From IMG/VR virus record IMGVR_UViG_3300028384_001500, positions 124,001-188,000 of that record: a stretch of 64,000 bases of DNA. One strand, 5' to 3'. Each line of letters begins with the position of its first letter. Positions within the stretch are counted from its first letter, which is position 1. The position numbers and the translations under genes were made by a program. The notes under the pieces were generated by a model, which was given only the letters and a program-made list of their open reading frames with translations, was not told the origin of the DNA and searched no databases. The DNA is from a virus. Positions 11,839-42,845 of the stretch are shown in pieces.

Positions 11839-12242
11839 TACTTATTTTTATATTTTCTTTTTGAATGCAACAGATCTTCTTCATGCCCGTCAACACCGTG
11901 TGACTCATGTGCTTCACCTAAATCATCGCTGTCTTTTACTTTCTCTAGTAAAATTGCAGGTATGTCAGTCTCAATTCCAATGCTAGGCCATTTTACATCA
12001 TATATTGCTATATGACCGCTTTCGTCCAGGCTGTGCCAGAGCACCTTTCCTATTTCATTTAAAGCAGAATCCTTCCGCTTAACATGAGTTAGTCATGTAT
12101 GGCCAATAATGTCATCAGCTGACTTGTCTCTTTTGGTTACATGGTCTAATCCGTAAGAGAACCCTTGTTCTTTACTAGCATAAGAAAGCCTATCTAATTC
12201 TTCTTTAATCAAACTTTTTAATTGGTTTTTTGTTAATTTCAT
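11838..12242 (-). pseudogene. Tagged gene interrupted by one in-frame UGA (or readthrough gene)
   Basis: Translation from the ATG at 12242 gives MKLTKNQLKSLIKEELDRL and stops after 49 codons at a TGA (12093-12095). The same frame then continues without any stop for 84 more codons to a proper stop at 11838-11840, ending in a Lys-rich tail. No frameshift is needed. The N-terminus carries the shared cargo tag, with LIKE as predicted cleavage site. The start overlaps the stop of the upstream gene as ATGA, like its neighbours. The UGA is followed by CUA, a weak termination context, and lies in a 6-bp inverted repeat (ACATGA/TCATGT). A single change from TGG (Trp) would also explain it. UGA is a genuine stop elsewhere in this window. 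The alternatives are a recent nonsense mutation, a sequencing error, or programmed readthrough. Confidence 0.6.
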
Positions 12243-12574
12243 TTTTTAGGCCCACCTTCTGTATATCCTGTGCAACTATTTGTTGCTTTACAAGAAAAGC
12301 CAAATGCGTGACAAAAAGCTGATGATTTATTCTTTGCAGTTACACCCGCCTCAATAGCTTCTTTTGATATATCATATGCAGCACAAGTTTTACAATATTT
12401 AACTTTGCCAAATTTATCTTCTAAAAACTCTTTTAAATCTTTGCGTTTTTTAGGATTACCGTATTTAGCATTTTTAATTGCTTTTTGTTTTCCGCCTTTG
12501 ACTTTCTTAAATGCATTGGCTTTTTTAGCAGCTTCTCTAATTAAATATTTTAGCTGCCCTAATGTAATTCTCAT
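12239..12574 (-). CDS. Small basic Cys-containing protein with capsid-targeting-like tag
   Basis: 111 residues beginning MRITLGQLKYLIREAAKK, a clear member of the tagged set, with predicted cleavage after LIRE (E14). The next 40 residues are strongly basic (KKVKGGKQKAIKNAKYGNPKKRKD). The C-terminal half has five Cys residues (CKTC, then C, C and C), enough for a small metal site or disulfides. Function is unknown. Its ATG overlaps the TGA of the acetyltransferase-like gene upstream, and its own TGA overlaps the ATG of the interrupted gene downstream, so the three are almost certainly co-translated. The basic middle would be suited to DNA binding inside the capsid. Confidence 0.75.
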   Translation of the reverse strand: MRITLGQLKYLIREAAKKANAFKKVKGGKQKAIKNAKYGNPKKRKDLKEFLEDKFGKVKYCKTCAAYDISKEAIEAGVTAKNKSSAFCHAFGFSCKATNSCTGYTEGGPKK

Positions 12575-13863
12575 TTTTTCTTTCTCATTCTTTTTGTTTT
12601 CTTTTTGCTAGCTTCTTTACGCTTTTTTGCATACTCGTATGCTTTTTTAAGACGCTTTTTCGTAGCAGGATCTTTTGCATTTTTATACGCAGCTCGTACA
12701 CGCTGGTGTATAAGATTAATTATCTGTGACTGTCGCTTATGACTTTTAGATTTAAAACTTTTTTTAGATAGCGTTTTTTTAATATCAGAAGCGGTTTTAA
12801 ATTTTACAGACACAGTATCCTTAGGATTTTCGTCTGTGTAGAGTCTTCTTCCACTACCTTTAGGTTTTTTACCTGTACCTACCTTTGGATCTTTTTTTTT
12901 TGACTCGCGCAAGTTTTCTTTTTTTGCTTTTTCTCGATTATAGGCTTCTATTTCTTCCGGGGTAGGTGAATTATTAAATGCATCTACAAAGTCAGATCTT
13001 CTGGTGCCTTGTATTCGATAATCGTCAAAATATACATTGTCTGTCCTAGATGTAAGCATGTTCCACACTTCTGCCATGGATTGTATACCTCTTTTTCGCC
13101 AAGAACTGGTTGTTCCAAAAGGATTGCGTGCCATGGCAGCAGCAGACTCAGGTGAAACTCCATTATAAAAGACGTCGTCAAGAACACCTTCCTCGTGGTA
13201 TAATTCTGAATAACAATCGTCATCCGGATCAGGTGTTAGGCCAAAAAAGTCCATTTCGTCACTTCCTTTCGCTGTGGTCTGCTTATAATACACACCTTGA
13301 TTCTCAGGAGCATTAACTTTAGAGTCAATAATGTTATTAATGACATCAGTGTTTCCACCTTCAAAGTCAGTTGTTATACCAGCTGGTGCAATTGGTGCGA
13401 CAACCTCACAATAATAAAAAATCAGGTCAAACATTAGATCGCCAATACCTCTGTTTTGGGCATTTACAGAAGTATAAATTGAACTAACTGAATATGTATT
13501 TGGTATACATTTAGCATCATGCCAGTATCTTACTTCTCCGTCTTCGTCTGCACCAACGGCGTCTTCTTCAACGCCCGGGCCTAATTTTCTTATGTAATGT
13601 ATTCTTTGATCGACGACTTCGTCATCTAATACTTTTAAAGGGTGTCCTTGCAATTGTCCTGTCAACTTAGTTAAGGTCGCTGACGCAATCAAGTCCCCTC
13701 CGTTAAAAAGGTCAAGTATTGTGATCTCTTCGTTGCCGTCATCTAAAGTTTCTTGATATCTTAAAGATAGACTAGGTAACGCTGCTAGTAGACTGTCATG
13801 TTGAGTAGTCTCAAGTATTATCTTTCTGATTGATTCTCTGATAAGTTTTCTTAATAAATTCAT
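12571..13863 (-). CDS. GNAT acetyltransferase-like protein with tag and Lys-rich C-terminal tail
   Basis: 430 residues. The N-terminus MNLLRKLIRESIRKIILE is a short form of the cargo tag, with an IRE cleavage site after E10. Around residues 126-150, SSIYTSVNAQNRGIGDLMFDLIFYYCE has the Q-x-x-G-x-G acetyl-CoA loop (Q136, G139, G141) and flanking strand and helix of GNAT N-acetyltransferases; the N-terminal part is divergent. From about residue 310 the protein becomes extremely Lys/Arg-rich (GTGKKPKGSGRRLYTDENP and onward), as in DNA-condensing tails. A second LRE site (E320, then Ser) sits exactly at the border, so a prohead protease could release the basic part. The substrate of the enzyme domain is unknown. 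Confidence 0.75.
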   Translation of the reverse strand: MNLLRKLIRESIRKIILETTQHDSLLAALPSLSLRYQETLDDGNEEITILDLFNGGDLIASATLTKLTGQLQGHPLKVLDDEVVDQRIHYIRKLGPGVEEDAVGADEDGEVRYWHDAKCIPNTYSVSSIYTSVNAQNRGIGDLMFDLIFYYCEVVAPIAPAGITTDFEGGNTDVINNIIDSKVNAPENQGVYYKQTTAKGSDEMDFFGLTPDPDDDCYSELYHEEGVLDDVFYNGVSPESAAAMARNPFGTTSSWRKRGIQSMAEVWNMLTSRTDNVYFDDYRIQGTRRSDFVDAFNNSPTPEEIEAYNREKAKKENLRESKKKDPKVGTGKKPKGSGRRLYTDENPKDTVSVKFKTASDIKKTLSKKSFKSKSHKRQSQIINLIHQRVRAAYKNAKDPATKKRLKKAYEYAKKRKEASKKKTKRMRKKK

Positions 13864-14763: not shown

Positions 14764-15102
14764 ATGAAACCCATCATCATTCAAAACAGCAAAATACCTG
14801 TTTATTTGTCAATATTTATTAGCATTGGTGCAATTACTCTGTTCCCTTTTATTATCTCACGAGATGAAATGAGCGAAACCACAATAAGACATGAATGCAT
14901 ACACATAGAACAACAACGTGAGCTCTGGGTTGTTCCTTTTTATCTACTATATGGTTTTTATTGGCTCAAAGGAAAGTTGTCAGGAATGACAAACGACGAG
15001 GCTTATATGAATATTCCGTTTGAACAAGAAGCTTATCGAAAAATGTATGACAAAGAGTATTTAAAAACAAGAAAGCGTTTTGCCTGGAAGGAGTATGTTT
15101 AA
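14764..15102 (+). CDS. Small membrane-associated HExxH protein (metallopeptidase-like)
   Basis: 112 residues and the only convincing plus-strand gene in the window. CCAGGAGGT gives a strong ribosome site and TATAAATA lies upstream. A hydrophobic segment (VYLSIFISIGAITLFPFII) is followed by RHECIHIEQQRELWVVPFYLLYGFYWL. HECIH is an HExxH zinc motif (H41, E42, H45 by count) followed by a second hydrophobic stretch. Small proteins of this pattern are widespread in T4-like and bacteroidal phages, often with no proven activity. No third zinc ligand is certain, although a later Glu (EQEAY) is in the right area. It converges on the tagged gene at 15947, with overlapping stop codons. It may act at the membrane in late infection or lysis. 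Confidence 0.75.
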   Translation: MKPIIIQNSKIPVYLSIFISIGAITLFPFIISRDEMSETTIRHECIHIEQQRELWVVPFYLLYGFYWLKGKLSGMTNDEAYMNIPFEQEAYRKMYDKEYLKTRKRFAWKEYV

Positions 15103-15947
15103 TAAAGTTCATCTGCCCATGATGAGTCAAATTTTGATGCAGGCATAGAGCTGTATCCTAGTTCAATTCTTAGATTGTCCATAATATTCTCTGCTTTTTT
15201 ATAAGTCTTTTCTGAATGTAGTTCGCTTTCATTATAAAGACGTTGAAGCTGATAGAGGGCGTCTAAAAGAGAGTCCGATCCATCAATATCTTTAGCTGCC
15301 ATTCTTGACGTGACGTCTATCGCTGCAGGTAAAATGCGATCAATGCTGGAAGAAAATACATCATTTGATGCATCTAAACCTACTACTTTATATTTGTTTT
15401 TTACAACTTCTTGCTTCCATATTTTTTCAAAGTTTTTCTTACCGTTAGGGCTTAACTGCGCTACTAAATCATTTGGAAATTTAAGCGCGTCTCTAGAGTT
15501 GAAACCGTTAACAAAAGTATTTAATATTTCATAAATTTTTTCTTCTGGGGAACCACCATACGGTCTTTTAAATGGTGTTGATTTGCATAGCCACATAAAT
15601 CCTGGTGAATACTCACTTGTAGGTGGTGCTGGATTAATACCTATACCGGCAATTTGAACTAGTATTTTTTCACGGCTTGACTGGTACCATAAAGTTTTTT
15701 TACCACTTTTATCTTTGCATAAAAAAGCATAATTATTATGCCAGTTTTGACGGACTAGAAAGAATTCATCAATGACTAAATACTCTCTATAATAATCTTT
15801 TATTTTTTGTCTATCTTGTAGTTCAATTTTTGCAGCTTCAGCTTCAGCTTCAAGACGTCTTGTTTTCTTACTTTTAAAGAAGTCAAAAAATCCTTCATTT
15901 AACTCTTGATATATCACCTGCCGGAGTTGTTTTTTTGTCATTAACAT
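15099..15947 (-). CDS. Tagged protein of unknown function
   Basis: 282 residues, MLMTKKQLRQVIYQELNEGFFDFFKSKKTRR. The first 20 residues are a variant of the cargo tag; LNE followed by Gly (after E18) fits the (L/I)xE prohead cleavage rule. A charged helical stretch (TRRLEAEAEAAKIELQDRQKIKDYYREY) follows. A central segment, YAFLCKDKSGKKTLWYQSS, looks like a small beta domain, and the C-terminal 120 residues are mostly helical. I do not recognise a catalytic motif. It is the last gene of a tagged run (19386 to 15099), 3 bases after its upstream neighbour, and its stop overlaps that of the convergent plus-strand gene. Confidence 0.75.
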   Translation of the reverse strand: MLMTKKQLRQVIYQELNEGFFDFFKSKKTRRLEAEAEAAKIELQDRQKIKDYYREYLVIDEFFLVRQNWHNNYAFLCKDKSGKKTLWYQSSREKILVQIAGIGINPAPPTSEYSPGFMWLCKSTPFKRPYGGSPEEKIYEILNTFVNGFNSRDALKFPNDLVAQLSPNGKKNFEKIWKQEVVKNKYKVVGLDASNDVFSSSIDRILPAAIDVTSRMAAKDIDGSDSLLDALYQLQRLYNESELHSEKTYKKAENIMDNLRIELGYSSMPASKFDSSWADELY

Positions 15948-15950
15948 GTT

Positions 15951-16484
15951 TTAAATCCATTCATCGCTAAAACTATCTTCTTCAATATCAGGTGTCCATC
16001 CCGGGCTATATCTTTGAATTGCTGCGTCGTTTAATTCACCCACATATCTTCCATCGTACAAGTCTTCAACATCAATAATATGTGTAAAGGGAGCGAATCC
16101 AGGACGAGGTGTTCTTAAAAGATTAAGAACTTCACCAACTAAATCCTCGTTTTCTGGATAATGATTTTGTCCTAGAGAATTGTCAAACCTCTTTTGCTTA
16201 ACAACTAGACTTACACCGTTTGGAGATCTAGGTGGCTTAGGTATCTCTATGTGTGTTTCATAAACACTTAAGACTTCACTAAACATTTGTGCAAACTCAA
16301 GTGTGGCAAAATCAGGGTTCTGTATATACGTAAAAAGATAACCGTTTGGTCCGGGCTGTTGATATATGCTAACAGCTCGCATGCCTGGCTTTTTTAAGTG
16401 AGGTGGAAAGTTAACTGGGTATGATTCATAGCCACCAATAGACTCAAATATTAACTTTCTTAACTGTGATATTGTTATTTTCAT
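15951..16484 (-). CDS. Tagged protein of unknown function
   Basis: 177 residues beginning MKITISQLRKLIFESIGGYESYP, a textbook example of the shared tag, with predicted cleavage after LIFE (E14). The mature part is Pro-rich and probably globular (YPVNFPPHLKKPGMRAVSIYQQPGPNGYLFTYIQNPDFATLEFAQMF), followed by VSLVVKQKRFDN and an acidic C-terminus. No enzyme motif is recognised. It sits nine bases downstream of the metalloprotease-like gene, which suggests co-expression. The short size and defined globular section would suit an injected effector or an inhibitor of a host enzyme, but this is only inference from the tag. Confidence 0.7.
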   Translation of the reverse strand: MKITISQLRKLIFESIGGYESYPVNFPPHLKKPGMRAVSIYQQPGPNGYLFTYIQNPDFATLEFAQMFSEVLSVYETHIEIPKPPRSPNGVSLVVKQKRFDNSLGQNHYPENEDLVGEVLNLLRTPRPGFAPFTHIIDVEDLYDGRYVGELNDAAIQRYSPGWTPDIEEDSFSDEWI

Positions 16485-16493
16485 TGGAATCTC

Positions 16494-17888
16494 TCAAGTA
16501 AGTTGCATGTATTGCTCAAATTTTGGTCTTAAAGAATGTACAGGATTCATACCTATTTCTGCTTTAAAGGCTCCATTCTTCCATTTTTTAATTTCTATTT
16601 TTTCTAAACTAAAATATTCTTTAAATATACCGTACCTTTTAATAGCGTATCTAAACCATAATCCAACTAGTTTATTGCATAATTCATTATGTCTGTCTAG
16701 CAAGCTTTGCAAGTCTATTCCAATTTTTTGCAAACTATATGCATCTTCATACATTGCTTTAATTTGATCCTGTCCTTGCTTTTTAATTTTGTTAATACTT
16801 TCTTGACATCTATTGTAAAAGTGATTAATAACACTGGACTTTCTTTTAAAAGATATATCTTTTTTTGTCATATTTTTGTAACTTGCCTTTTCATGTTTAT
16901 TAGTGGTACTTGATCGAATACGTGCAACTCTCATCATTCCCACTACCCATGCTTCTATTTCTATCTTAGTAAAATAATAATATACTAAAAAGAGTGGTGG
17001 ATTACGATACTTATTATATGAATCAAATATCACAGGAGATAATCTTAAAAAATCTTCTGCCAAATAACCTAGCTGGTCTTTGATTGGCGAAATTCTTTTT
17101 ATACTTTTTACAAAATCATTAGTTTTTTTCAAAAAATCACGATCGTGAAGTTCTCCCATTTTGTCAACCACTAGCATTTCTCGTTTAGTTTTTAAATAAA
17201 ACGACTTGACCAGACTAGAATACTTCATTAATCCTTCACTCTCATCATATTGCCTATCAAGATAACTTATTTCGCTAGCCTCGGGAGCGTCTCTTAAATC
17301 AACTTTATTAAACTCATTAGATTGCTTAAAGTGATGTATTTCATGAAAAGCAGTTGATTGGAATTGTTCAATTACTTCATTAATACCACCGTAATTGTTT
17401 CTTTCTCTGTCATCAAAGGCTGCAAAACCTGGATGTATTCCAAGCGTCAAAGTTAATGTATTGTCGTAAGGGTTGTATCCACCACCACCCGGGAAGAACT
17501 TAAGACCTTCTAAAAAACCCGCGCTGTTATATCCTGAATAACGAATCTTAATTTTTAAGCCATCAAGTTTGTTTATAGATGAATTCTTATTCAGTGTTTT
17601 CTTTTTTGCGTTCTCTAATATTTCTTCACTTTCTTCTGATAGTTCTGAAAAAGCGTTTTTAATATCGTCAGTTACTTTTTTGTAATTTCCGCTATCTAGA
17701 TTACTCTCCAACCAAAAGTCTGTCGATTTTACATTTTTATTTAATGATTCTATTTTTTTAATTTTTTCTACTATCGCATTGATAGTTTCCCGGACAAGTA
17801 TTCCAGTACCTTGAGCGTCTCTCCTGGAAGCTTCTTTTAAAACAGATTTACATATTAATTTTCTCAATTTACTTCTTGTAATTTTCAT
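16494..17888 (-). CDS. Tagged HEIHH metalloprotease-like protein
   Basis: 464 residues, MKITRSKLRKLICKSVLKEAS. The tag is present; the usual LIxE is LICK here, but LKE followed by Ala (after E19) gives an alternative cleavage site. Residues 178-188 read STAFHEIHHFKQ, an HExxH zinc-protease motif (H182, E183, H186) in a helical context. Before it, a Gly-rich segment (FFPGGGGYNPYDNTLTLTLG) resembles the beta strand that lines the active-site cleft of such proteases. The C-terminal 250 residues are helical and basic, and may bind a substrate or DNA. Its start overlaps the stop of the kinase-like gene as TAATG. The third zinc ligand is not certain. Nearest known idea: a virion-packaged protease delivered to the host. 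Confidence 0.75.
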   Translation of the reverse strand: MKITRSKLRKLICKSVLKEASRRDAQGTGILVRETINAIVEKIKKIESLNKNVKSTDFWLESNLDSGNYKKVTDDIKNAFSELSEESEEILENAKKKTLNKNSSINKLDGLKIKIRYSGYNSAGFLEGLKFFPGGGGYNPYDNTLTLTLGIHPGFAAFDDRERNNYGGINEVIEQFQSTAFHEIHHFKQSNEFNKVDLRDAPEASEISYLDRQYDESEGLMKYSSLVKSFYLKTKREMLVVDKMGELHDRDFLKKTNDFVKSIKRISPIKDQLGYLAEDFLRLSPVIFDSYNKYRNPPLFLVYYYFTKIEIEAWVVGMMRVARIRSSTTNKHEKASYKNMTKKDISFKRKSSVINHFYNRCQESINKIKKQGQDQIKAMYEDAYSLQKIGIDLQSLLDRHNELCNKLVGLWFRYAIKRYGIFKEYFSLEKIEIKKWKNGAFKAEIGMNPVHSLRPKFEQYMQLT

Positions 17889-18697
17889 TAGTAGGCCCCT
17901 TCTACACCACCGTCAATTATAACAAACCGGCCATCTTCTAGGCTTCTTCCAATATTTCCGTAACCTAGATCATTAATGTCATTTTCACTCATAACGTGCA
18001 ATAATAATTGCATGTCCGGGCAATTAAGAATTAAACTTTTTATACTTTCCAACCCTATACTTTCAAGCATACCAGTAACATGAGAATTATTAGCAAACAT
18101 ATAATTAGTCACTGTATTTAACCCATCATTAACAATTTCTTCAATTGTCCAATCGTCATAATTTATATCGTCAGGTAGAAAGGTCATAAATATAGACCCT
18201 ATTAATGAAATATTACCGGTAGTATTGTCAGAATATCGGTTAAATTCTTGCGATAATCTTTGCATACTTTTAAAGCTGCTAATAACTGCTTCTCCTAACC
18301 CATAAGGCGTGTGGATAGGAGGTGTGTTTTCAACAATAAGCCATCTAAACTCTGGGTCATGCACATAAACCTTTGGAAATATTTTGGTATAGCGGTTAAA
18401 TAAATCTATTTCTTTTTTATTGTATTTTACACCGCTATCGTTTCCTATGTCAATGTGAGCAACTTTTGCGACTAAGCCAGGCCGTCCATTAATTTCATAG
18501 ACACCGCGATAACTACCTGCGCCAATATTATCACCAATATTTTCCTCTAGCCAGCCGGGTAATTCTGGATATAGTCTTGAGTCAGCTTTTTCAGGATTAT
18601 CCATTAAACGAGTAATAGTTGGGCCAAAATGCTTTCTTTCTCGATCTGTAAAAGACTCCCATATTAATTGCTTTAACTGACTTCTTGTTATTTTCAT
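17888..18697 (-). CDS. Tagged protein-kinase-like protein
   Basis: 269 residues beginning MKITRSQLKQLIWESF, with predicted cleavage after LIWE (E14). The rest shows the order of a protein-kinase-like fold: a Gly-rich loop GAGSYRGVY (59-67), a Lys strand LVAKVAH (K78), a helix Glu (KKEIDLF, E96), a hinge-like strand WLIVENTPP (119-127), a catalytic-loop-like DLGYGN (D243, N248) and a metal-binding strand VIIDGG (D262). The spacing between D243 and N248 matches HRDxxxxN. The protein is small for a kinase, and the lower lobe is reduced. It could phosphorylate proteins or be a pseudokinase; D, N and D are all present, which favours activity. It overlaps its neighbours by TAATG, inside the run of tagged genes. 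Confidence 0.75.
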   Translation of the reverse strand: MKITRSQLKQLIWESFTDRERKHFGPTITRLMDNPEKADSRLYPELPGWLEENIGDNIGAGSYRGVYEINGRPGLVAKVAHIDIGNDSGVKYNKKEIDLFNRYTKIFPKVYVHDPEFRWLIVENTPPIHTPYGLGEAVISSFKSMQRLSQEFNRYSDNTTGNISLIGSIFMTFLPDDINYDDWTIEEIVNDGLNTVTNYMFANNSHVTGMLESIGLESIKSLILNCPDMQLLLHVMSENDINDLGYGNIGRSLEDGRFVIIDGGVEGAY

Positions 18698-19386
18698 TAG
18701 TAAAATACGCCGTGTTGATTTGCAACTTTTTCAGGTAGCTTGTTAAGTCTTTTCATGGTAGGACTAAAATCGCCTTCTTTGCCAGAAACGATATTCATAA
18801 GCCTGTAATAGCCAGGGATATTTTGTAAAGTTTCAATAACATCCCAGTATTCTGGATAATCAGACGACTTAAGTAGTTCTTTAATCTCTACATTCATTTG
18901 ATGTTCAATTTGATCAACATGCTCGGTATAGTCTGTTTTTCCACCGTAATATGGGCTACCTTTTTGAAGGGCTGTATTATCTTTATAAGAATCTCCAACT
19001 TCTATCGCATCAAATGCTTTATCCATTTCATCATGTGCATAATCTCTTAGCGCTAATTCATCTTCGGTAAATCCAAAAGGTTTAAATTCACCTTGATCAC
19101 CAACCATGTCAGCCAATTGTACACCTTGATTCATACTAGCTATTTGTTTTTCATCAAAAGACGATCGTCCACGAGAGTCTATACCGTGTTTTAATCTATC
19201 TGGGGCAAAAGATCTAAGTCTTTCATCACTCTGTGCGTCTAAAAAGTCTTTTTTTGCATCGTGAGTGTGAAAAGCTTTCATGTGAGGACTACCTGGATCG
19301 TTAGTAGTGTCAAATGCATCACCTTCTGGATTAACATAAATTGTTTCTTTGATAAGTTTTCTTAATTGCTTTCTTGTTATTTTCAT
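18697..19386 (-). CDS. Tagged acidic protein of unknown function
   Basis: 229 residues if translation starts at 19386. A longer in-frame reading from 19464 is rejected because the tag MKITRKQLRKLIKETIYV begins exactly at 19386 and that ATG overlaps the upstream stop as ATGA. Predicted cleavage follows LIKE (E14). The mature part is acidic and rich in Asp, His and Gly, including KAFHTHDAKKDF and HGIDSRGRSSFDEKQI, and a C-terminal helical part (VEIKELLKSSDYPEYWDVIETL). No known motif is seen. It directly precedes the kinase-like gene and overlaps it by TAATG, so the two are probably translated together and could act on the same target. Confidence 0.75.
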   Translation of the reverse strand: MKITRKQLRKLIKETIYVNPEGDAFDTTNDPGSPHMKAFHTHDAKKDFLDAQSDERLRSFAPDRLKHGIDSRGRSSFDEKQIASMNQGVQLADMVGDQGEFKPFGFTEDELALRDYAHDEMDKAFDAIEVGDSYKDNTALQKGSPYYGGKTDYTEHVDQIEHQMNVEIKELLKSSDYPEYWDVIETLQNIPGYYRLMNIVSGKEGDFSPTMKRLNKLPEKVANQHGVFY

Positions 19387-20003
19387 TGTATTTTTACTCC
19401 TAGCCAAAGGCCTTGTGCTGCTTGTCTTACATACCCTTCTAAAAGATGCGCAGGTATAACCCACTTAAGAGGTTTTTGTTCAGGCATTATTCTCATATCT
19501 ATTCTGCCGCGAGTCATTGTGATACGAGTTTCTTGCTGTTTTATATAATTAATCTGACCTCTGTCAGATACTGTAGAAGTGCTTGCAAGGGTCATGTCTG
19601 GGTTAAACAATAGCATTTGCACTACAGTTTCATGATCGTCAATTGTGATAATCGTTATAATCGTTTCAACTAACATATGATTATTTTGATTTGCACATGC
19701 CTTGGCGTCCAATAAATAATTGCAATTATCGTATGCATAATCGATTGTATCTTTATCGTATACTTTAACAATAGATTTTTGTCCTAGGCGATCCCAAGTA
19801 CCTCGATCATTTTTTATTTTTCCGTCTTTCCAGTACGTGCTGTTATAGGCATAGACAGATTTGCTGCTTAAAGTCCCTTCTGTTTCTGCAGATACATTGA
19901 CGATTTTTGGCGTTGATATATACACCTCTAGGCCGCTGTGTTCTTCTACAACAATCGTCGTTTGCGCAAATGCCATTAAAATTATCAAAGCGTATAGTAA
20001 CAT
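19383..20003 (-). CDS. Exported beta-rich protein of unknown function
   Basis: 206 residues with a GAGGAG ribosome site. The N-terminus MLLYALIILMAFAQTTIVVEE is a signal-peptide-like hydrophobic segment with an AFA-Q type signal peptidase I site near residue 13; it is short and has no positive charge before the hydrophobic core, so export is likely but not certain. The mature part is beta-rich, with one pair of Cys residues (C73-type NCNY and CANQ) that could form a disulfide, and a C-terminal amphipathic helix (HLLEGYVRQAAQGLWLGV). It is alone among tagged genes in lacking the tag. It is placed in the same run, with an ATGA overlap to the next gene. Role may be periplasmic, in lysis or exclusion of other phages. 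Confidence 0.6.
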   Translation of the reverse strand: MLLYALIILMAFAQTTIVVEEHSGLEVYISTPKIVNVSAETEGTLSSKSVYAYNSTYWKDGKIKNDRGTWDRLGQKSIVKVYDKDTIDYAYDNCNYLLDAKACANQNNHMLVETIITIITIDDHETVVQMLLFNPDMTLASTSTVSDRGQINYIKQQETRITMTRGRIDMRIMPEQKPLKWVIPAHLLEGYVRQAAQGLWLGVKIQ

Positions 20004-20016
20004 TCATTCTCCTCAT

Positions 20017-20616
20017 TTAATATTCTTCTGAGTCTTCTTCAGGGTCAATTCCAATTGGCTCACCTTTTTTATTTAACATTTTTGGCATTCGAATGTCTCC
20101 TGATGTTAAAGCTTCAAATCCCACGTTAAATTCACTGTATCCGGATTTAATCTCAATATCAAATTCTGCAGCTGCTTGGATCGGTATCTCTGTAATTGCT
20201 CTAAATGTTGCTACGTATTCATTGTAAGGCATGCCGTAACCCTTGATACCCTTCAAGCCGTTCGAATAAGACAGATTTAATTGTTCACCTATATAATTAA
20301 ATAAGATTTGTACACGAGGAATGCTAGAAGTATTTCCTCTTTGTACGCTATAAGGGACTTTATTGTCATCTACATATTTCATTGCTAAAATTAAATCTTT
20401 TACCAGCATCCGATAGAGATCAGGTTTGTATTTAATAAGTGGGTGTATTAGCTTGATAGCATGTTCCATTATTTTGCCAAAAAATAACGCTGACAAAAAG
20501 GGTGGATAAAGTAATGCATTATATGGGGTTTGCTGCACAGACTCCGGATCCCAAGACATCAATTTAATTTGATCATATCCGTCTTCAATTACTTCAAGAC
20601 TAGAAAGCTCATCCAT
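20017..20616 (-). CDS. Conserved-looking helical protein of unknown function
   Basis: 199 residues from the ATG at 20616 (MDELSSLEVIEDGYDQIKLM). An in-frame TTG two codons earlier is also possible, because the start overlaps the TGA stop of the upstream 811-residue gene by a few bases and no Shine-Dalgarno is evident. The protein has a mostly helical N-terminal half (ALFFGKIMEHAIKLIHPLIKYKPDLYRMLVKDLILAMKYV) and a beta-rich C-terminal half, ending in an acidic tail (DPEEDSEEY). There is no targeting tag and no recognised domain. Translational coupling to the WCT-motif gene suggests the two work together, perhaps in the same particle. Confidence 0.65.
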   Translation of the reverse strand: MDELSSLEVIEDGYDQIKLMSWDPESVQQTPYNALLYPPFLSALFFGKIMEHAIKLIHPLIKYKPDLYRMLVKDLILAMKYVDDNKVPYSVQRGNTSSIPRVQILFNYIGEQLNLSYSNGLKGIKGYGMPYNEYVATFRAITEIPIQAAAEFDIEIKSGYSEFNVGFEALTSGDIRMPKMLNKKGEPIGIDPEEDSEEY

Positions 20617-23044
20617 CGGCAAATATTTTATAAGCAGCTTTGCCAGGTCTACTTGAAATACTGTTTATCATTGTTTTGTAAGATTCCTTAACGTCCTCAG
20701 GTTTATTCATGTAACGCATATAATATTGAATCTGTTCTGCAGGATCTGGTATAAAATTCATTTGTTGCACAACACCGCTATCAAGCAATTCTTTTCTAAA
20801 TGGCGTTAATATCCTGCACAATTCTGTATAGTACTTTGTAAATTCAGATATAGCTTTAGATGTACCGATATCAAAACCCGGTATTTTGGCTAGTACAGGC
20901 AACAGATCTCTAAAGACATAATTATACTGCGTGCGAGACCTTAAAAGTGCATCTGTTGCCAACTCAATTAACTCTATTGCCCTAGGAGGAAGTTCGTAAT
21001 CACCTTTAATATGACCCATTATAGGAAAGTGCATCTTAGGTAAAATTGATGCACCCATTTTTATCATATCACCGTCAATATCACTTCCGCTAAATCCATA
21101 GTCTTCTGCTTTCTCAAAAGTCTCTTCCATGATAGGTAAAAATTTATCAAGAATATATTTTTTAACTTCGACACTACTGTTTCCATGATCAAGCATGTTT
21201 TTCATGGCACTAACTAATTCCTTAAGTGCATCAGACATTTGCTTGGACTCAGGTGTAAGATAAAACCCAAATATTTCTTGGATCCTATCATTTAGAACGT
21301 CATCGAATTTACCTGCAAGTATCATTTCTTCAAATTTGCGGTGTGCAGTTCCGACTTGATAGGAACCTGATGTTAATCGCTTTAAAGACTCTGAAATTGC
21401 GGGAATTAACCATGGCAGCTTATGATTGTGAAGAATGCCTTCCATGTTGTCGGTTACTTTAGAAATAAGTAGTTCGCAAATTGATGGATTAAAAACGACA
21501 GATGAAGCGAAAAAATTGGTAAAGAGATTTAAAGATCCTCCTGTAGATCTAAATTGGGATTTTGGTACAAAATCCCACTGGGTTTGATCAGTCATTGGTG
21601 GGTCAAGAAGACCACGCATTTCATAGTCATTTTTTAGTTTTTCAATTATATTATTTCTTTTGTCTTGTGACTCTTTTGAGTGTGGATCAAAAAGAAGGTC
21701 GTCAGTTAGAGTGAGATATGCAATACTTTCTTTAACTTTTTTACTTACTTCTGCATGCGCAGAGCCGATTAGCGATATAACAATATATGGGAATATTCCT
21801 TCTGTTGCCAATTCTGACTGAGCCATTCTGCTGTCTTTAACACGCGGTACATTTCTCATGTAGATATAGTCTAAAACAGAAGAGCTAAGATGAGTACTTC
21901 TAAGAACATTCATTACAAAAGCCATTCGATGGTTTGGTTCAGCTAGTGTTGATAAATGTTCTTTAAAGACTGTTTTGTTTCTTGCACGTGCTCTCAAAGG
22001 TTTTATATCTTGCATACCTATATTTTGTTGCTGTGCCCTATCCTCTTGTGACACACTAGAACCTTCTAAGCCTCCCGGGCCTTTAACAGCAAAGTGACCT
22101 TTAATGTATCTAATTATTTTCTGAGTTGTTTCAGGACCTAAAACTTGAATAAGACTGTCTTCTGTGACGCCATGCTGATTTCCCCAGACACTGGCACCTC
22201 CTGCATTACCAGGAAGCACAATACTGTCTGGGCCTGACCCATTAAAACCAATTGAAAAATTATCATTATATACATTTGGATCATTATAACACTGGTGTTG
22301 TGGGTATAAATTCCTATTGTCGTAAGGCCTGTCAGGTTTTTGTTTGGCTACGTAGTAAAGTGTAATACCTTGTCTAGTATAAGTTTGCCAATGTCCTCCA
22401 TAAACAGTACACCATGCGTTAACACCAATTGCTTGAGCACCTGCCATTGTGTACGGTCTAAGAATATCCCAACCGTCGATTTCCATGTGTCTAATTAGAC
22501 CTAATCCTCCAGAGACGTCTTCGTTTAAGTCCCCACCAATTGCAGCATATTTTTGCGCAATTGCTTCCTCAGCTGCCAATTTAGCATTACCAGAGGAATC
22601 TTCACCTTTAGTCGCTACTCTGTCTTTGCCTACTAGTTTTTCATATGCTTTATTGTTTTTTTGTATAAAGCGAGCATCAATATCGTCAATAATCCCGATT
22701 AGTGTTTTGTAATCAGGAATATTATTAGGATCTAGGTACTCATCGGGTAACACACCTTTTTGCTGGGAGTACTTTTCATGCATAAGCACACAAAAAATAA
22801 TTTGTCCATAGCTAAAATTTTGATATAAAACAAAATTACCGGTCTCATCAGATATAAACTGCCCTATCATTTTATCTAAAAAGCGAAGATACTTGTTTTT
22901 GTTGCGTATCATATTAATCGCTTCTGCATATCCGTACTCCGGCTTATTCATTGCTGGGTATTTATCTAATATGTCTTTGGCTTTAATTTCAAGCAACAAA
23001 GCTTCAAAAATAAGTTTTCTAAAAATTCTACGTGTTAATAACAT
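20609..23044 (-). CDS. Large tagged internal-virion-type protein with WCT motif
   Basis: 811 residues. The N-terminus MLLTRRIFRKLIFEALLLEI is a variant of the cargo tag with cleavage predicted after LIFE (E14). Around residues 190-232, DGWDILRPYTMAGAQAIGVNAWCTVYGGHWQTYTRQGITLYYV holds a W-C-T centred motif (211-213) followed by a segment ending in LYYV; a similar pattern (G-T-x-WCT, then Y...G.LY) recurs in internal and hypothetical proteins of many marine phages and has no fixed biochemical role that I know. The rest is largely helical. It is first in the tagged block, after a terminator at 23067-23091, and is co-translated with the gene at 20616. The Cys may be catalytic or structural. Confidence 0.75.
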   Translation of the reverse strand: MLLTRRIFRKLIFEALLLEIKAKDILDKYPAMNKPEYGYAEAINMIRNKNKYLRFLDKMIGQFISDETGNFVLYQNFSYGQIIFCVLMHEKYSQQKGVLPDEYLDPNNIPDYKTLIGIIDDIDARFIQKNNKAYEKLVGKDRVATKGEDSSGNAKLAAEEAIAQKYAAIGGDLNEDVSGGLGLIRHMEIDGWDILRPYTMAGAQAIGVNAWCTVYGGHWQTYTRQGITLYYVAKQKPDRPYDNRNLYPQHQCYNDPNVYNDNFSIGFNGSGPDSIVLPGNAGGASVWGNQHGVTEDSLIQVLGPETTQKIIRYIKGHFAVKGPGGLEGSSVSQEDRAQQQNIGMQDIKPLRARARNKTVFKEHLSTLAEPNHRMAFVMNVLRSTHLSSSVLDYIYMRNVPRVKDSRMAQSELATEGIFPYIVISLIGSAHAEVSKKVKESIAYLTLTDDLLFDPHSKESQDKRNNIIEKLKNDYEMRGLLDPPMTDQTQWDFVPKSQFRSTGGSLNLFTNFFASSVVFNPSICELLISKVTDNMEGILHNHKLPWLIPAISESLKRLTSGSYQVGTAHRKFEEMILAGKFDDVLNDRIQEIFGFYLTPESKQMSDALKELVSAMKNMLDHGNSSVEVKKYILDKFLPIMEETFEKAEDYGFSGSDIDGDMIKMGASILPKMHFPIMGHIKGDYELPPRAIELIELATDALLRSRTQYNYVFRDLLPVLAKIPGFDIGTSKAISEFTKYYTELCRILTPFRKELLDSGVVQQMNFIPDPAEQIQYYMRYMNKPEDVKESYKTMINSISSRPGKAAYKIFADG

Positions 23045-37725: not shown

Positions 37726-39084
37726 TTATTCTTTCATTACCACTTTGGTATCTTTTTTGTCAATTTGGAATTGTGGTTCGCACCCTGGTATTATAACCCA
37801 GCATCTTTTAGATTTACAAGGTTTTGGTTTAGGTGCATAGCCATCAGTCATAATAATATAGCCATCATATTTAGCAATATGCTTTCTAAAGTGATCCTCG
37901 ACACAGTTAAAACAAGTACCTCCGCCCCTAGTTCTATATGCTTTTCGAACTGTTTTATTCTTTTTCCAGACAAACTCACTCTCTTCATCGACTGCTGTAT
38001 CGAAGTGATAGATGGTAAACGTTACCCGTTTTGCCAATTCATTAAGTGTATTGAATAGTAATTGCAATTCATGATCGCCAACGGATCCGGATTGGTCAAT
38101 ATAGACTGCAATGTTAGATGTGTAACTTGTTTTTCGACCTGGATGAATGTATGGGTATTTCTTATTAATACGCTTATAAGTTCTAGAGCGATTAGCTTTT
38201 TGCTTAGAACCACAGAAATATCTCAATACATTTCGCCAGTCGATTTCATCGGAAAACATTGCTTGGATTTCCCCTTGCATGCTAGCTCCAACTGAACCCC
38301 ATGAACGATTTTTGTTTGCTCGATTTGCAGCTTTTTTAACAATCTCTTTAATTTTAGCATCGGCCATGGCTTTTTCAGCATCAGTAAGCTCTTCATCAAA
38401 GTGATGATCAAAACCTTGACCGGGCTGACCGTTACCAAATCCGTGTTCGCAAGAGCCATTCCCTCCACCACCAGAACCTTCGTCATCACCAGAACCATCT
38501 TCAGAACCATCACCAGAACCACACATTGGACAGCTACCTGTGCCTTTTTGCCCCATAGACTCCTGAATGGCATCTTGAATATCTTCATCAGACATGATTT
38601 TTTCCATGTACCATTCAGATGCCTTATTTAAAGGTAGCGATTTGATAAAGTCACTCATTTGGATTTGTTCTGGCGTTGGGGTATAATCTTTAGGAAATAC
38701 TGTTGCTTGGCCAGGAACTAATCCGCCGTCAGGTAATTCATCAAGCGGTATTGTTGAGTTAATTGCCAAATCAGTTGCAATATTCCACATGAGGTGTGGC
38801 TTTTGCTTTCTACCTGTAACATGTTTATAAATCAAATGATAACATTCGTGCTTAAGTAATCCAAACACTTTTTTTGTTGTTAGCTTGCCAACAAAGTCTG
38901 GGTTCCAATGCAGAGTAAATTCTCCTCCGGAACATGAAACACCAGCTGTTGGTATGGCATAGGTTTTTTGTCGACGAATATGACTCATTATATCTGAAAA
39001 GAAAGGCTCATTTAATAAGAATTTAAGCATAATCTTTTTAAATCTTTCATCAGTTAATTCTTCTTTTGTTAAGGCATCTACCAT
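37726..39084 (-). CDS. VWA-domain protein with N-terminal metallopeptidase-like domain (DUF2201 type)
   Basis: 452 residues. LLKHECYHLIYKHVTGR holds HECYH (H79, E80, H83), a zinc-peptidase-like motif, followed by WNIATDLAINS, together typical of the DUF2201 N-terminal domain. A Gly/Ser/Asp-rich linker with Cys pairs (CPMC, then C) covers about residues 180-225. NIAVYIDQSGSVGDHEL has the D-x-S-x-S MIDAS of a VWA-type domain (D330, S332, S334), followed by IIMTDGYAPKP. This is the normal partner of MoxR-type ATPases, which lies directly upstream. The pair probably remodels or activates a target protein or loads a metal cofactor. It has its own promoter at 39107-39134 and an AGGAGG ribosome site. 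Confidence 0.8.
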   Translation of the reverse strand: MVDALTKEELTDERFKKIMLKFLLNEPFFSDIMSHIRRQKTYAIPTAGVSCSGGEFTLHWNPDFVGKLTTKKVFGLLKHECYHLIYKHVTGRKQKPHLMWNIATDLAINSTIPLDELPDGGLVPGQATVFPKDYTPTPEQIQMSDFIKSLPLNKASEWYMEKIMSDEDIQDAIQESMGQKGTGSCPMCGSGDGSEDGSGDDEGSGGGGNGSCEHGFGNGQPGQGFDHHFDEELTDAEKAMADAKIKEIVKKAANRANKNRSWGSVGASMQGEIQAMFSDEIDWRNVLRYFCGSKQKANRSRTYKRINKKYPYIHPGRKTSYTSNIAVYIDQSGSVGDHELQLLFNTLNELAKRVTFTIYHFDTAVDEESEFVWKKNKTVRKAYRTRGGGTCFNCVEDHFRKHIAKYDGYIIMTDGYAPKPKPCKSKRCWVIIPGCEPQFQIDKKDTKVVMKE

Positions 39085-39147: not shown

Positions 39148-40212
39148 TTAGATATCGTTTGCTGCATTAACAACTTTAACAACCTTACCACCTAAGAATT
39201 TGTGGAACTTTTTGATATTGTCAAGGTGTTTTGTTTCCATTAACATGTTCATAAAGTTAACCAACATTTCATCGGAACAACTATCAATAAATGATGAGGC
39301 TGTCTTTGCTTGAGTAACCGTTACATCATTTGTTTTTAAATAAGTAATTGTGATACTCAATAAGTCATTCTTTTTATCGTTTGTCAACTTATCAATTCGG
39401 CTTTTGACACCACCTTTGTCATTATGATAACGATTAAGCAAGTCTTTTGCACTAAACTTTGATTGGTGGTTTTTGACATAGTCACTAAAAGCAACTGTGC
39501 CAGCCTCGCCAATAAAACCTAACCCGATAGAGAAGATAAGACTGTCATAATCTTCACCACAGTGTGTAGATGGATCTAGGTTTGCGTGTTTAAGTGCTTT
39601 ATCAAATCGAGCCCATGATGCAGGATTAGGATAAACAATACCTGGTTCAAATGTACCAGTATGACGAAGTCGAGCAGGATATTTCTTAATAAACCCAATA
39701 GTAAGAGGGTCAATATTACCAACATTTTCAGCCCATTCTAACCAGTCATCAGTTGTTGGTTCTAAGTCAATAGACCAAAAACGACGAAGAAGAGCAGGAT
39801 CCATTTCAGTAACTTGGTAGTCGCTGCCTTCATTAACTGCTGCATAGACACGGGTTTCTGGGTGGAGCTTGTGACCGTTAAGTTCTCGATCCAATACAAT
39901 TTGGAAAGCACATTGTTGTACTTCTAAAGTTGCACGGTTAAGCTCATCGAAGAATAAGACTCGAGGTTCATTACAAGCTTCAATAAACCAATTGACTGGT
40001 GCAAATCTTGTTGTGCCATCGACCAATTCTGGAAGACCAATGAGGTCACCCTCTGTCATGTATGAAAGTCGTCGATCCAATACTTCTAATCCGATTTCTT
40101 TACCAATTTGGTGAAAGATATGTGATTTACCAATACCGGTTGGTCCTTTTACTAATACTGAAATTTCTGGTGGAAGGTTTGATACTACTTTTACGAAGGT
40201 TTTGATATCCAT
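39148..40212 (-). CDS. MoxR-type AAA+ ATPase
   Basis: 354 residues. KGPTGIGKS (23-30) is Walker A and RVLFFDELNRA Walker B (D89-E90). The MoxR-type insert is seen as YMTEGDLIGLPELVDGTTRFAPVNWF, followed by VYAAVNEGSDYQVTEMDPALLRRF, with the sensor and arginine-finger region at its end. Together with the VWA protein (partner gene, 63 bases downstream), it forms the ATPase-VWA pairing known from bacteria, where it works as a chaperone or assembly system. Why a phage carries it is not established; possible targets are virion proteins or a host enzyme. It has its own TGTAAC-16-TATAAT promoter and an AGGAG ribosome site. Confidence 0.88.
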   Translation of the reverse strand: MDIKTFVKVVSNLPPEISVLVKGPTGIGKSHIFHQIGKEIGLEVLDRRLSYMTEGDLIGLPELVDGTTRFAPVNWFIEACNEPRVLFFDELNRATLEVQQCAFQIVLDRELNGHKLHPETRVYAAVNEGSDYQVTEMDPALLRRFWSIDLEPTTDDWLEWAENVGNIDPLTIGFIKKYPARLRHTGTFEPGIVYPNPASWARFDKALKHANLDPSTHCGEDYDSLIFSIGLGFIGEAGTVAFSDYVKNHQSKFSAKDLLNRYHNDKGGVKSRIDKLTNDKKNDLLSITITYLKTNDVTVTQAKTASSFIDSCSDEMLVNFMNMLMETKHLDNIKKFHKFLGGKVVKVVNAANDI

Positions 40213-40274: not shown

Positions 40275-40796
40275 TTAGTCAACTTCAATTTTCTTAAGCC
40301 CTTTAGCGTATATCCATCTAAACCCACCTGTGGTAAGTATTTGATATTGTGTGTTATCTGTAACTACCCTTGAACCTGTATAATCGGCAATACCTCGATT
40401 ATCAATAGACTCTTTAACAATTATACCATATAAGTCTTCGCTTGCACCGTAGAGTCGACCTGGAAGTACAACTAAGTCTCCAATACCGCAGTTCCATTTC
40501 ATCTGTCGTCGTCTAGTTTTTGGTATCTTGCCTTTTACTTCTTTTTTAATCTTTCTAAGCTTTTGCTTTTGAGTTTGTTGAAGTTGACCTGATTGAGCTG
40601 CTTCTTGTCTTTGTTTTTCTAGGGCTGCTTTAACTTCTGCAAGAGTTGTTGGTACTTTTTCCTCTTCTGGTTGCTGTGTATTGCCACTTTCTTTTAAGCC
40701 AAGTTCTTCAATTTTCTTTTGGGCTTCTTCCTCAGCTTTTTGCTTACGAACTTTTTCTTTAATGGCTTTTAATTGTTGTCTATTTAACTTTGCCAT
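40275..40796 (-). CDS. Lys/Gln-rich coiled-coil protein with C-terminal SH3/KOW-like fold
   Basis: 173 residues. The first 100 form a highly charged helix (MAKLNRQQLKAIKEKVRKQK and onward) with many Gln, Lys and Glu. The C-terminal 70 residues (WNCGIGDLVVLPGRLYGASEDLYGIIVKESIDNRG, then TQYQILTTGGFRWIYAKGLKKIEVD) look like a small beta-barrel of the KOW/SH3 type, which binds nucleic acid or protein. It has a good ribosome site (AGGAGG) and its own TGTAAC-16-TATAAT promoter. It belongs to the promoter group with the MoxR and VWA genes, so a link to that system is possible. Function is otherwise unknown. Confidence 0.65.
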   Translation of the reverse strand: MAKLNRQQLKAIKEKVRKQKAEEEAQKKIEELGLKESGNTQQPEEEKVPTTLAEVKAALEKQRQEAAQSGQLQQTQKQKLRKIKKEVKGKIPKTRRRQMKWNCGIGDLVVLPGRLYGASEDLYGIIVKESIDNRGIADYTGSRVVTDNTQYQILTTGGFRWIYAKGLKKIEVD

Positions 40797-40857: not shown

Positions 40858-42126
40858 TTACAAAAGTTTGTTAATTTTATCAGGTTGCATGTGCGCAACA
40901 ATATTATCTATGTACCTGTCACCAATCATGGTATTGACCTTTTCAAAGTCAAAATCACAATCTGATGCTAGTATAATCCTACCAGAACGACCGTTACCGT
41001 CACAAAATGGATGTATGTATTCATAAAGAATATGTCGTAACCACGGATGACTAGAGTGCGCATGACATTTCTTAAGCTTTTGATTTAATTCATAAGGTTC
41101 CGGATATTGACACCCTGATGGTGAACTATGTGAATAGTTTCTAAACTCACCCGGTGATCCTTTCTCTAATATATTTTGATCAAAACACTTGTGAATATGA
41201 CAGATTTTATGATTATTGTCAATCTTACCTAGTTTATTTGCCATGACTAAACCGTTAATCTGAGAATTGATGTGAGGGCAGTTTGTAATATGTTTAGGTG
41301 GTACGCCCATCATTAAGTATTTTGCTGCTTCAAAGCAGTCGCTATATTCTAAATTAAACTTTTCAATTCCTGACGTTCTTTGCAAGAAATAAGCCAGATC
41401 ATGACATGTATCTTTGAGATTGTCACTTTTAGATCTAAGTTTTTCTGCAAAATTTTTATAATGTTTTTTAGATAGAGTCTTGTCAATATTACTAGCATTT
41501 TCGTTGTTGAATATATCAGCTAACGTTTCTCCTATAAGCCTTCCGTATTCTACATCTGTTGGATAGTGTACAGCATTTTCTATTCTTGACTGCCCTATTA
41601 ACGATGATAAGGTTTGCAAATCTTGTTTTATTTCTGGTATCGCATTTGAAAGTACATCACAAAGAAAGTATGCAATTGCTGTATGCCCGGATGGAAACGA
41701 CGGTGACTTTTTATATTTAACTTTCAAGTCTTTGTCAGCATCTTTAAGATAATGTATAGGGCGAGGCCTATTATTGTCATATTTTAATTTTAAAACAACG
41801 GTATCAACGTCGTCTAAAACATCCTTAATTTTCTTCCAGTCTATGTTTCGATATCCGTTTTCTTTACAATAAGACCTAAATATGTCTTCAACACTATCAT
41901 CAGAGTTTTTAAGAAAAGAAGTCGACATGCAAGGATTATTATGACACCGTTGGACTTCTTCTATGTCTGATTTAAATCCTTTTGTATTTTCAGCTGGGTG
42001 CTTTAAGACAGGTAATCTATCCATGCAATCGTGGGGAAGATATCTATATCTTCTGGACATTCTATCAGCATGCCCTTTATCAATATCTAATTTTGTTTCC
42101 TCAAATAGATTTAAAATAGATCTCAT
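40858..42126 (-). CDS. PAP2-type phosphatase fused to a Fic AMPylase-like domain
   Basis: 422 residues in one frame. Residues 90-210 carry all three PAP2 (class A acid phosphatase-like) motifs: K113-x6-R120-P, PSGH (145-148) and S180-R-x5-H187-x3-D191. Residues 235-422 are a Fic domain: HPFCDGNGRSGR (372-383) is the active-site motif with His372 and Arg380/383, and a flap-like GEFRNYSHSSPSG precedes it. TSGIEKF (251-257) resembles the inhibitory helix (S/T-x3-E), with Lys in place of the usual Gly or Asn. PAP2 removes phosphates; Fic transfers AMP from ATP to Ser, Thr or Tyr. The start overlaps the stop of the tagged zinc-ribbon gene. A short LFE motif at residues 7-9 could be a cleavage tag, but is weak. 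Confidence 0.85.
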   Translation of the reverse strand: MRSILNLFEETKLDIDKGHADRMSRRYRYLPHDCMDRLPVLKHPAENTKGFKSDIEEVQRCHNNPCMSTSFLKNSDDSVEDIFRSYCKENGYRNIDWKKIKDVLDDVDTVVLKLKYDNNRPRPIHYLKDADKDLKVKYKKSPSFPSGHTAIAYFLCDVLSNAIPEIKQDLQTLSSLIGQSRIENAVHYPTDVEYGRLIGETLADIFNNENASNIDKTLSKKHYKNFAEKLRSKSDNLKDTCHDLAYFLQRTSGIEKFNLEYSDCFEAAKYLMMGVPPKHITNCPHINSQINGLVMANKLGKIDNNHKICHIHKCFDQNILEKGSPGEFRNYSHSSPSGCQYPEPYELNQKLKKCHAHSSHPWLRHILYEYIHPFCDGNGRSGRIILASDCDFDFEKVNTMIGDRYIDNIVAHMQPDKINKLL

Positions 42127-42845
42127 TAATACTCATCGTGAAAGTCATAGTCTAAAGAGTGATATACTTCTGATATATCATCTGCAATTTGTGCAATTTT
42201 TGTACGTTGCCAGTCATCTAATTCATATCCGTCAGGGATCATTTGTAAAAGTTTTTGTGAGTATTTTGCAACCTTATACAATGACGGTTTTGCCATGTAA
42301 TTATTATTGTGATATTTATGCCCGTCTAATTTACCGTCATGATCATGATGATGTTTATACGCATCGACTGCATATCCTGCTCCAGTTAAAGTACCTAAAG
42401 CATTACCAATCATACCCATTGTATCTATTGAATAATCTGATCCGTCGTCTGAGCATCCTGCACATGTGCCGCATCCGCAACCTCCTTCATTCAGCATTTC
42501 ACCCATGTAACCGCATTCCATGCATTCACCTTCGTACATTGAACCACCACATTGCTCACACATTTTGCCTTCTAAAATAGAAGACTCCATTGCACCACAC
42601 TGTTCACACATGCCTTCAAATACTGAGTTGCTTCCACACTTGTGACAGCTACTTCCTCCACCGAAGTCATCAAAAGAGTCGACATGTTTTGTTAAATTTA
42701 GATTATGAGGAGCACGTGCTTGTGAACGATATCCTGTATCTCTGTAGCTGTCTTTTCCTCGGGCGATTAATGCGTCTTCTCCTACCATTTTTGCCATTTC
42801 TTGCATGATCAAACGCCTAATCATGTTTTTTGATAATTTGCTCAT
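42126..42845 (-). CDS. Zinc-ribbon-rich protein with tag-like N-terminus
   Basis: 239 residues, MSKLSKNMIRRLIMQEMAKMVGE. The start resembles the cargo tag, although its cleavage site is less clear (LIMQE rather than LIxE). Four CxxC units in a row (CHKC, CEQC, CEQC, CMEC) and later CGCGTCAGC point to two or more zinc ribbons near residues 80-150, then a His/Asp-rich linker (AYKHHHDHDGKLDGHKYHNNN) and a helical C-terminus. Zinc ribbons bind nucleic acid or proteins. The gene directly precedes the PAP2-Fic gene and overlaps its start, and follows the primase gene. AGGAG precedes the ATG. Confidence 0.7.
   Translation of the reverse strand: MSKLSKNMIRRLIMQEMAKMVGEDALIARGKDSYRDTGYRSQARAPHNLNLTKHVDSFDDFGGGSSCHKCGSNSVFEGMCEQCGAMESSILEGKMCEQCGGSMYEGECMECGYMGEMLNEGGCGCGTCAGCSDDGSDYSIDTMGMIGNALGTLTGAGYAVDAYKHHHDHDGKLDGHKYHNNNYMAKPSLYKVAKYSQKLLQMIPDGYELDDWQRTKIAQIADDISEVYHSLDYDFHDEY

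Follow-up and report, generated by a model that had tools for sequence, protein, structure and literature searches.

A gene joining predicted PAP2 phosphatase and Fic domains in an uncultured lineage of T4-like myoviruses

Enzymes of the PAP2 superfamily hydrolyse their substrates through a phosphohistidine intermediate, and the class A nonspecific acid phosphatases among them are exported single-domain enzymes. A large number of Fic proteins act as toxins or in defence, and Fic domains can also transfer phosphate (Doc) or phosphocholine (AnkX). The Fic superfamily is represented in phages by Doc of phage P1 and by single-domain Fic/Doc proteins; Doc has a degenerate Fic motif, kinase activity and a separate antitoxin. 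Modification of host proteins by phages is best known as ADP-ribosylation, as carried out by T4 Alt. Class II Fic proteins carry an N-terminal inhibitory helix with the motif (S/T)xxxE(G/N), which in CbFic2 reads TSAIEG at residues 62-67, with the Fic motif at 205-216 (PMC10628234). In FICD, the corresponding glutamate, Glu234, interacts with the second arginine of the Fic motif (R2, Arg374) and blocks competent MgATP binding (PMC6826200).

The window analysed here, 64,000 nucleotides (124001-188000) of a virus record 236,652 bases long, contains a gene that combines these two well-known families in an arrangement of which we found no description. The record as a whole contains one Fic domain and one PAP2 domain, both within this gene. 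The open reading frame (40858-42126, minus strand) starts with an ATG that shares a base with the stop codon ending the gene upstream (TAATG) and runs as a single frame of 422 residues, with no internal stop. Its features, all on the minus strand, are as follows.

40858..42126, minus: PAP2-Fic fusion gene, 422 aa (ORF translation, Pfam, orthologues)
42091..42126, minus: conserved N-terminal peptide, residues 1-12, MRSILNLFEETK, a possible capsid-targeting propeptide (entropy, pLDDT, pattern test)
41494..42057, minus: PAP2 domain, residues 24-211, predicted class A acid-phosphatase fold (Pfam, PDB profile, superposition)
41758..41784, minus: PAP2 motif 1, K115-x6-R122-P123 (invariant in 15/15)
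41683..41694, minus: PAP2 motif 2, PSGH, residues 145-148 (invariant in 15/15; retained in the degraded-Fic subclade)
41554..41589, minus: PAP2 motif 3, S180-R181-x5-H187-x3-D191 (R181, H187 and D191 invariant)
41422..41493, minus: variable linker between the domains, residues 212-235 (entropy, pairwise identity)
40864..41445, minus: Fic domain with N-terminal inhibitory helix, residues 228-421 (Pfam, PDB profile, superposition)
41359..41376, minus: inhibitory-helix motif T251-SGI-E255-K256 (Glu255 invariance, SoFic model, CdFic alignment)
40978..41013, minus: Fic motif HPFCDGNGRSGR, residues 372-383 (translation, Pfam, alignment)

Pfam places PAP2 (PF01569) at residues 110-203 (E 1.4e-13, 51.1 bits) and Fic (PF02661) at residues 307-386 (E 3.3e-7, 31.5 bits). 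Both matches exceed the family cut-offs (27.2 and 24 bits, respectively), and both families were matched in all 15 orthologues scanned. The initial annotation, made from the letters alone, had described complete PAP2 and Fic motif sets in one frame, and this description holds, with both scores above the cut-offs and the motifs intact. It had also called for a structure prediction. An AlphaFold2 model built on an alignment of 44 sequences reached a pLDDT of 93.1 and a pTM of 0.89 (an alignment of 7 sequences gave an unusable pLDDT of 51; 44 sufficed), and it supports both folds when superposed on known structures. The anatomy of the fusion and its predicted fold are almost certainly as set out here. 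The linker between the domains is the variable part of the protein: its entropy reaches 2.4 bits, and in each pair of sequences compared its identity is the lowest or nearly the lowest among four regions.

The N-terminal half has its closest described counterparts in the class A acid phosphatases (PhoN, PhoC, the Escherichia blattae enzyme 1eoi/1d2t, Pseudomonas aeruginosa 7f17 and Shigella PhoN2), with which it has the whole-domain fold and all catalytic residues in common. A profile of residues 34-212 searched against the PDB retrieved enzymes of class A, 7f18 at 1e-15 and PhoN at 1e-14, and model residues 24-211 overlay the E. blattae enzyme 1eoi with a Z score of 18.8 and a root-mean-square deviation of 2.8 over 183 residues. 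Residues K115, R122, P123, P145-S146-G147-H148, R181, H187 and D191 are invariant in a 15-sequence orthologue alignment; the register of motif 1 is fixed as K115-x6-R122-P123 because the overlapping alternative, K113-x6-R120-P121, breaks in one orthologue (L010). On sequence and model, this half is a member of the PAP2 superfamily that resembles the class A type, but as it shows by inspection no export signal we do not place it among the secreted class A enzymes. It differs from the class A enzymes in being only about 20% identical to them, in its fusion to a Fic domain and in its N terminus, MRSILNLFEETKLDIDKGHADRM, which by inspection has no hydrophobic stretch resembling a signal peptide and thus points to a cytoplasmic phosphatase.

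The C-terminal half compares most directly with the class II Fics (FICD, CdFic, CbFic2 and SoFic), sharing with them a complete Fic motif, an N-terminal helix bearing a glutamate and the overall fold. Its motif, H372-PFCDGNGRSG-R383, is complete and fits HxFx(D/E)GNGRxxR, and the 15-sequence alignment shows no variation at the key motif residues, at Glu255 or at the flap residues G326 and R329. Model residues 228-418 superpose on Clostridioides difficile Fic (CdFic, 4x2d) with Z 15.2 and residues 234-421 on FICD (4u0z) with Z 15.0; in the latter, model residue 234 aligns to FICD 213, an offset that, if constant, places Glu255 on FICD Glu234. A sequence profile searched against the PDB aligns the TSGIEK helix with SNKIEG of CdFic, and the PADLOC SoFic model matches residues 251-386 (2.5e-10), with the alignment beginning at residue 251. 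Glu255 sits N-terminal to the Fic core, 117 residues before H372; all inspected orthologues whose Fic motif is intact retain it, as do two Fic-only relatives (L039 and L040, after their contigs). Judged from these alignments and the model, the TSGIEK helix is a class II inhibitory helix. The first reading of the sequence had seen in it an inhibitory-like helix with one key position changed, and so it proves: the protein has K256 where the class II motif has G/N, and this position varies among relatives, with N in L001, L032, L037 and L084 and K, F, S, L, R or Q elsewhere, whereas Glu255 does not vary. The fusion further departs from the class II Fics in its short C terminus and in carrying a PAP2 domain in place of TPR, DUF4172 or HTH, and from Doc in its canonical motif, built-in inhibitory helix and PAP2 partner.

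Scans of viral contigs recovered full-length orthologues in 25 other contigs at 30-78% identity, the 78% relative coming from the first scan, and the Fic motif is complete in the window and in 21 of the 25. In a tree of PAP2 domains, all fusions fall together on one side of a branch supported at 100/99, apart from the stand-alone phage PAP2 proteins. Soluble PAP2 proteins that stand alone are common in viral contigs, and the Fic-only relatives (L039:5953-6585 and L040:5911-6552) are proteins of 210-213 aa with the inhibitory helix and its glutamate, in contigs of 57 and 108 kb, possibly fragments, in which no PAP2 was found. The two modules thus occur apart and, to judge from the tree, came together a single time, in a lineage of T4-like myoviruses. 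In both halves, dN is well below dS for the pairs P0001-L007, L023-L025 and L078-L081; dS is saturated in several other orthologue pairs.

The surroundings of the gene are conserved as well, and the neighbours on the minus strand that belong to the conserved block are these.

42126..42845, minus: upstream neighbour, with leader MSKLSKNMIRRLIMQE, a cysteine-rich zinc-ribbon-like part and a conserved C-terminal region (conserved neighbour)
40275..40796, minus: downstream neighbour (conserved neighbour)
39148..40212, minus: AAA ATPase (phrog_1297), next gene in the conserved block (PHROG match)

The order of the block is a structural protein, a RuvC-like protein, a DnaG-type primase, a cysteine-rich protein with a basic leader, PAP2-Fic and a small basic protein, usually followed by the AAA ATPase and a partner; in the window, SbcCD-like and terminase genes lie beyond. 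This order is the same in every orthologue contig whose flanks were read, and the terminase, portal and head protease are T4-like. PAP2-Fic is a syntenic core gene of a T4-like myovirus lineage known only from environmental DNA. The gene at 37726-39084 of the window, which adjoins the MoxR-like AAA ATPase, carries the PHROG label 'HNH endonuclease' (phrog_1314), although it may be a VWA/metallopeptidase-like partner.

The earlier remark that no phage enzyme of this architecture had been described stands: we found no description of a PAP2-Fic fusion in the open-licence literature, and searches of cultured phage genomes (INPHARED), plasmids (PLSDB) and viral protein structures (BFVD) returned the two domains only separately. 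The nearest checked cultured relatives by terminase, Microcystis phage Mel-JY01 and Flavobacterium phage immuto, have no match to either family. The search for further fusions that had been suggested turned up the 25 viral contigs and, in two scans of bacterial contigs with narrow peptide patterns, none; fusions may thus also occur in cellular genomes.

We propose the following reading of the protein, to which we assign a probability of roughly 0.6: on sequence and structural model, it would be a cytoplasmic PAP2 phosphatase and an autoinhibited AMPylating Fic enzyme in one chain. A single soluble two-enzyme protein would be made in, or injected into, the infected cell. Its PAP2 half is predicted to hydrolyse small phosphate esters or pyrophosphates, such as nucleotides, and its Fic half to move AMP from ATP onto a hydroxyl of a host protein. 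Glu255 would restrain the Fic half by pairing with Arg383, in the manner of Glu234 and Arg374 in FICD, until some trigger released the inhibition; since the inhibitory glutamate also supports deAMPylation in other Fics, a switchable enzyme is possible (PMC6408439). A link through pyrophosphate, in which the PAP2 half consumed the pyrophosphate released by the Fic half, is an attractive possibility. In this explanation we infer both activities, the group moved, the host target and the coupling between the halves; AMP is the probable group on the strength of the canonical Fic motif, though other Fics move other groups. The lysine at position 256, where class II Fics have G/N beside the inhibitory glutamate, counts against the proposed reading. 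Most likely the fusion acts on the host during infection, in host takeover or nucleotide handling, and its status as a syntenic core gene argues that it serves every infection and is not an accessory toxin. If so, AMPylation would be a candidate for a general means of host takeover in a T4-like group that only metagenomes have revealed. The suggestion in the initial annotation that the chain might remove one modification and add another finds no support: the phosphatase resembles the small-substrate enzymes PhoN and PhoC and not a protein demodifier, and the degraded-Fic subclade described below argues against obligate coupling. Its alternative, a chain that would first process nucleotides and afterwards use them, is conceivable.

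The fusion can also be set beside T4 Alt. As a works-like comparison only, both belong to T4-like phages, the fusion being predicted to modify a host protein and having a propeptide-like N terminus (PMC9026906), but it differs from the ADP-ribosyltransferase in chemistry and fold, and packaging is hypothetical in its case. In T4 IPIII, the first 10 residues are needed for capsid targeting, with positions 4 and 7 serving targeting and 8 and 10 processing; the Alt propeptide has 7 residues, and a gp21 site reads LIE (PMC9026906). Residues 1-23 of the fusion lie outside the fold (pLDDT is 62 for residues 1-10, and the acid-phosphatase superposition begins at residue 24), yet S3, L7 and F8 are invariant in 15 orthologues, and entropy at residues 7-12 is 0.94 bits, so that this part of the peptide is about as conserved as the motif regions. 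The family is hydrophobic at positions 4, 7 and 8, in the T4-like spacing, and has mostly E/D at position 10. The conserved peptide reads MxS[LI]xxLFxE. Its positional pattern (hydrophobic at 4, 7 and 8, E/D at 10) occurs in only 2 of the 43 window genes against 0.56% of internal 10-mers, the second gene encoding a protein of the leader family discussed below, and the genes for a T4-like portal, prohead protease and terminase are close by. It is conceivable, if on balance doubtful, that the fusion is packed in the head by means of this peptide, cut by the prohead protease and, as happens with T4 Alt, injected so as to modify the host at once. The pattern was drawn post hoc, which keeps packaging and injection at the level of hypothesis, and some members have A, N or L at position 10. 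The fusion leader also differs from the MKITxxQLRKLIxE leader of other proteins of the same phage. A point in favour of packaging is that L039 and L040, the Fic-only relatives, have a leader of another type, II-x-E. The fuller proposal of a head-packaged, injected two-enzyme effector that alters both host nucleotide pools and a host protein within the first minutes is less probable still; if true, the injected fusion would be an AMPylation-based counterpart of T4 Alt.

Leaders of a related kind are widespread in the window. At least eight proteins (12239-12574, 12571-13863, 15099-15947, 15951-16484, 17888-18697, 18697-19464, 20609-23044 and 42126-42845) share a leader like MKITRxQLRKLIxE that ends in an [LI]xE-like site; by analogy it recalls the capsid-targeting propeptides of T4, with a cleavage site of the gp21 type, and could be the signature of a packaged set. 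The leader of L039 and L040 is of the type MRITKxxLRKIIxE, and four stand-alone soluble phage PAP2 proteins (L092, L095, L096 and L119) have short N-terminal leaders with an [LI]xE-like site.

A different challenge to the two-enzyme reading comes from four orthologues, L077, L078, L080 and L081, nested among the fusions in the PAP2 tree as a 100/100 clade. Their Fic motif reads APFxxGN[KR]KITN, the catalytic histidine and arginines and the inhibitory glutamate having been lost together; no Fic match is returned by Pfam for the two members scanned (L077 and L080), while the frame is uninterrupted and the PAP2 residue set is intact. As this subclade loses the Fic site and keeps the phosphatase, the two activities are not obligatorily coupled. 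The degraded Fic half is still selected, since in one close pair of the subclade its dN is 0.078 against a dS of 0.783, presumably for something other than transfer, and its retention means that the region can have a non-catalytic role. From this it could be argued that the protein is functionally a phosphatase throughout, its Fic half being a regulatory or target-binding appendage in which catalysis is incidental. The PAP2 residues are intact in all members, L080 retains the gene order of the block, and viral contigs commonly encode soluble PAP2 proteins on their own, all of which would fit. We nevertheless regard this account as unlikely for the family at large, where the Fic motif is complete in the window and most relatives with dN well below dS, and where Fic-only proteins exist in contigs with no PAP2. 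The subclade is a natural experiment that separates the role of the phosphatase from that of the Fic domain, and one in which the inhibitory glutamate disappears when the catalytic residues do.

The toxin and defence roles of many Fic proteins, together with the PADLOC SoFic match noted above, raise the question of whether the gene is the Fic-type toxin of a phage toxin-antitoxin or abortive-infection system. We consider this very improbable and reject a class I toxin-antitoxin arrangement: the neighbours at 42126-42845 and 40275-40796 match no antitoxin family in Pfam or PHROG, inhibition is predicted to be intramolecular, and a core syntenic gene of a phage lineage is not a mobile accessory. 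A frameshift or misassembly joining two genes, which would have undone the original observation, can be dismissed, because the same full-length frame is intact in the 25 other viral contigs, drawn from many samples and separate assemblies with a coherent phylogeny, and the inter-domain model is confident (pTM 0.89).

PAP2 domains are also found in other settings in viral contigs. A different phage fusion occurs in L112:2377-3471 and L113:1801-3423, where PAP2 lies behind a UPF0227 (YqiA-like esterase) domain, as seen in a Pfam scan of L113. In L097, L103 and L118, PAP2 is embedded in longer phage proteins, of about 538-539 and 961 aa, a sign that viral genomes may carry soluble PAP2 as a mobile module.
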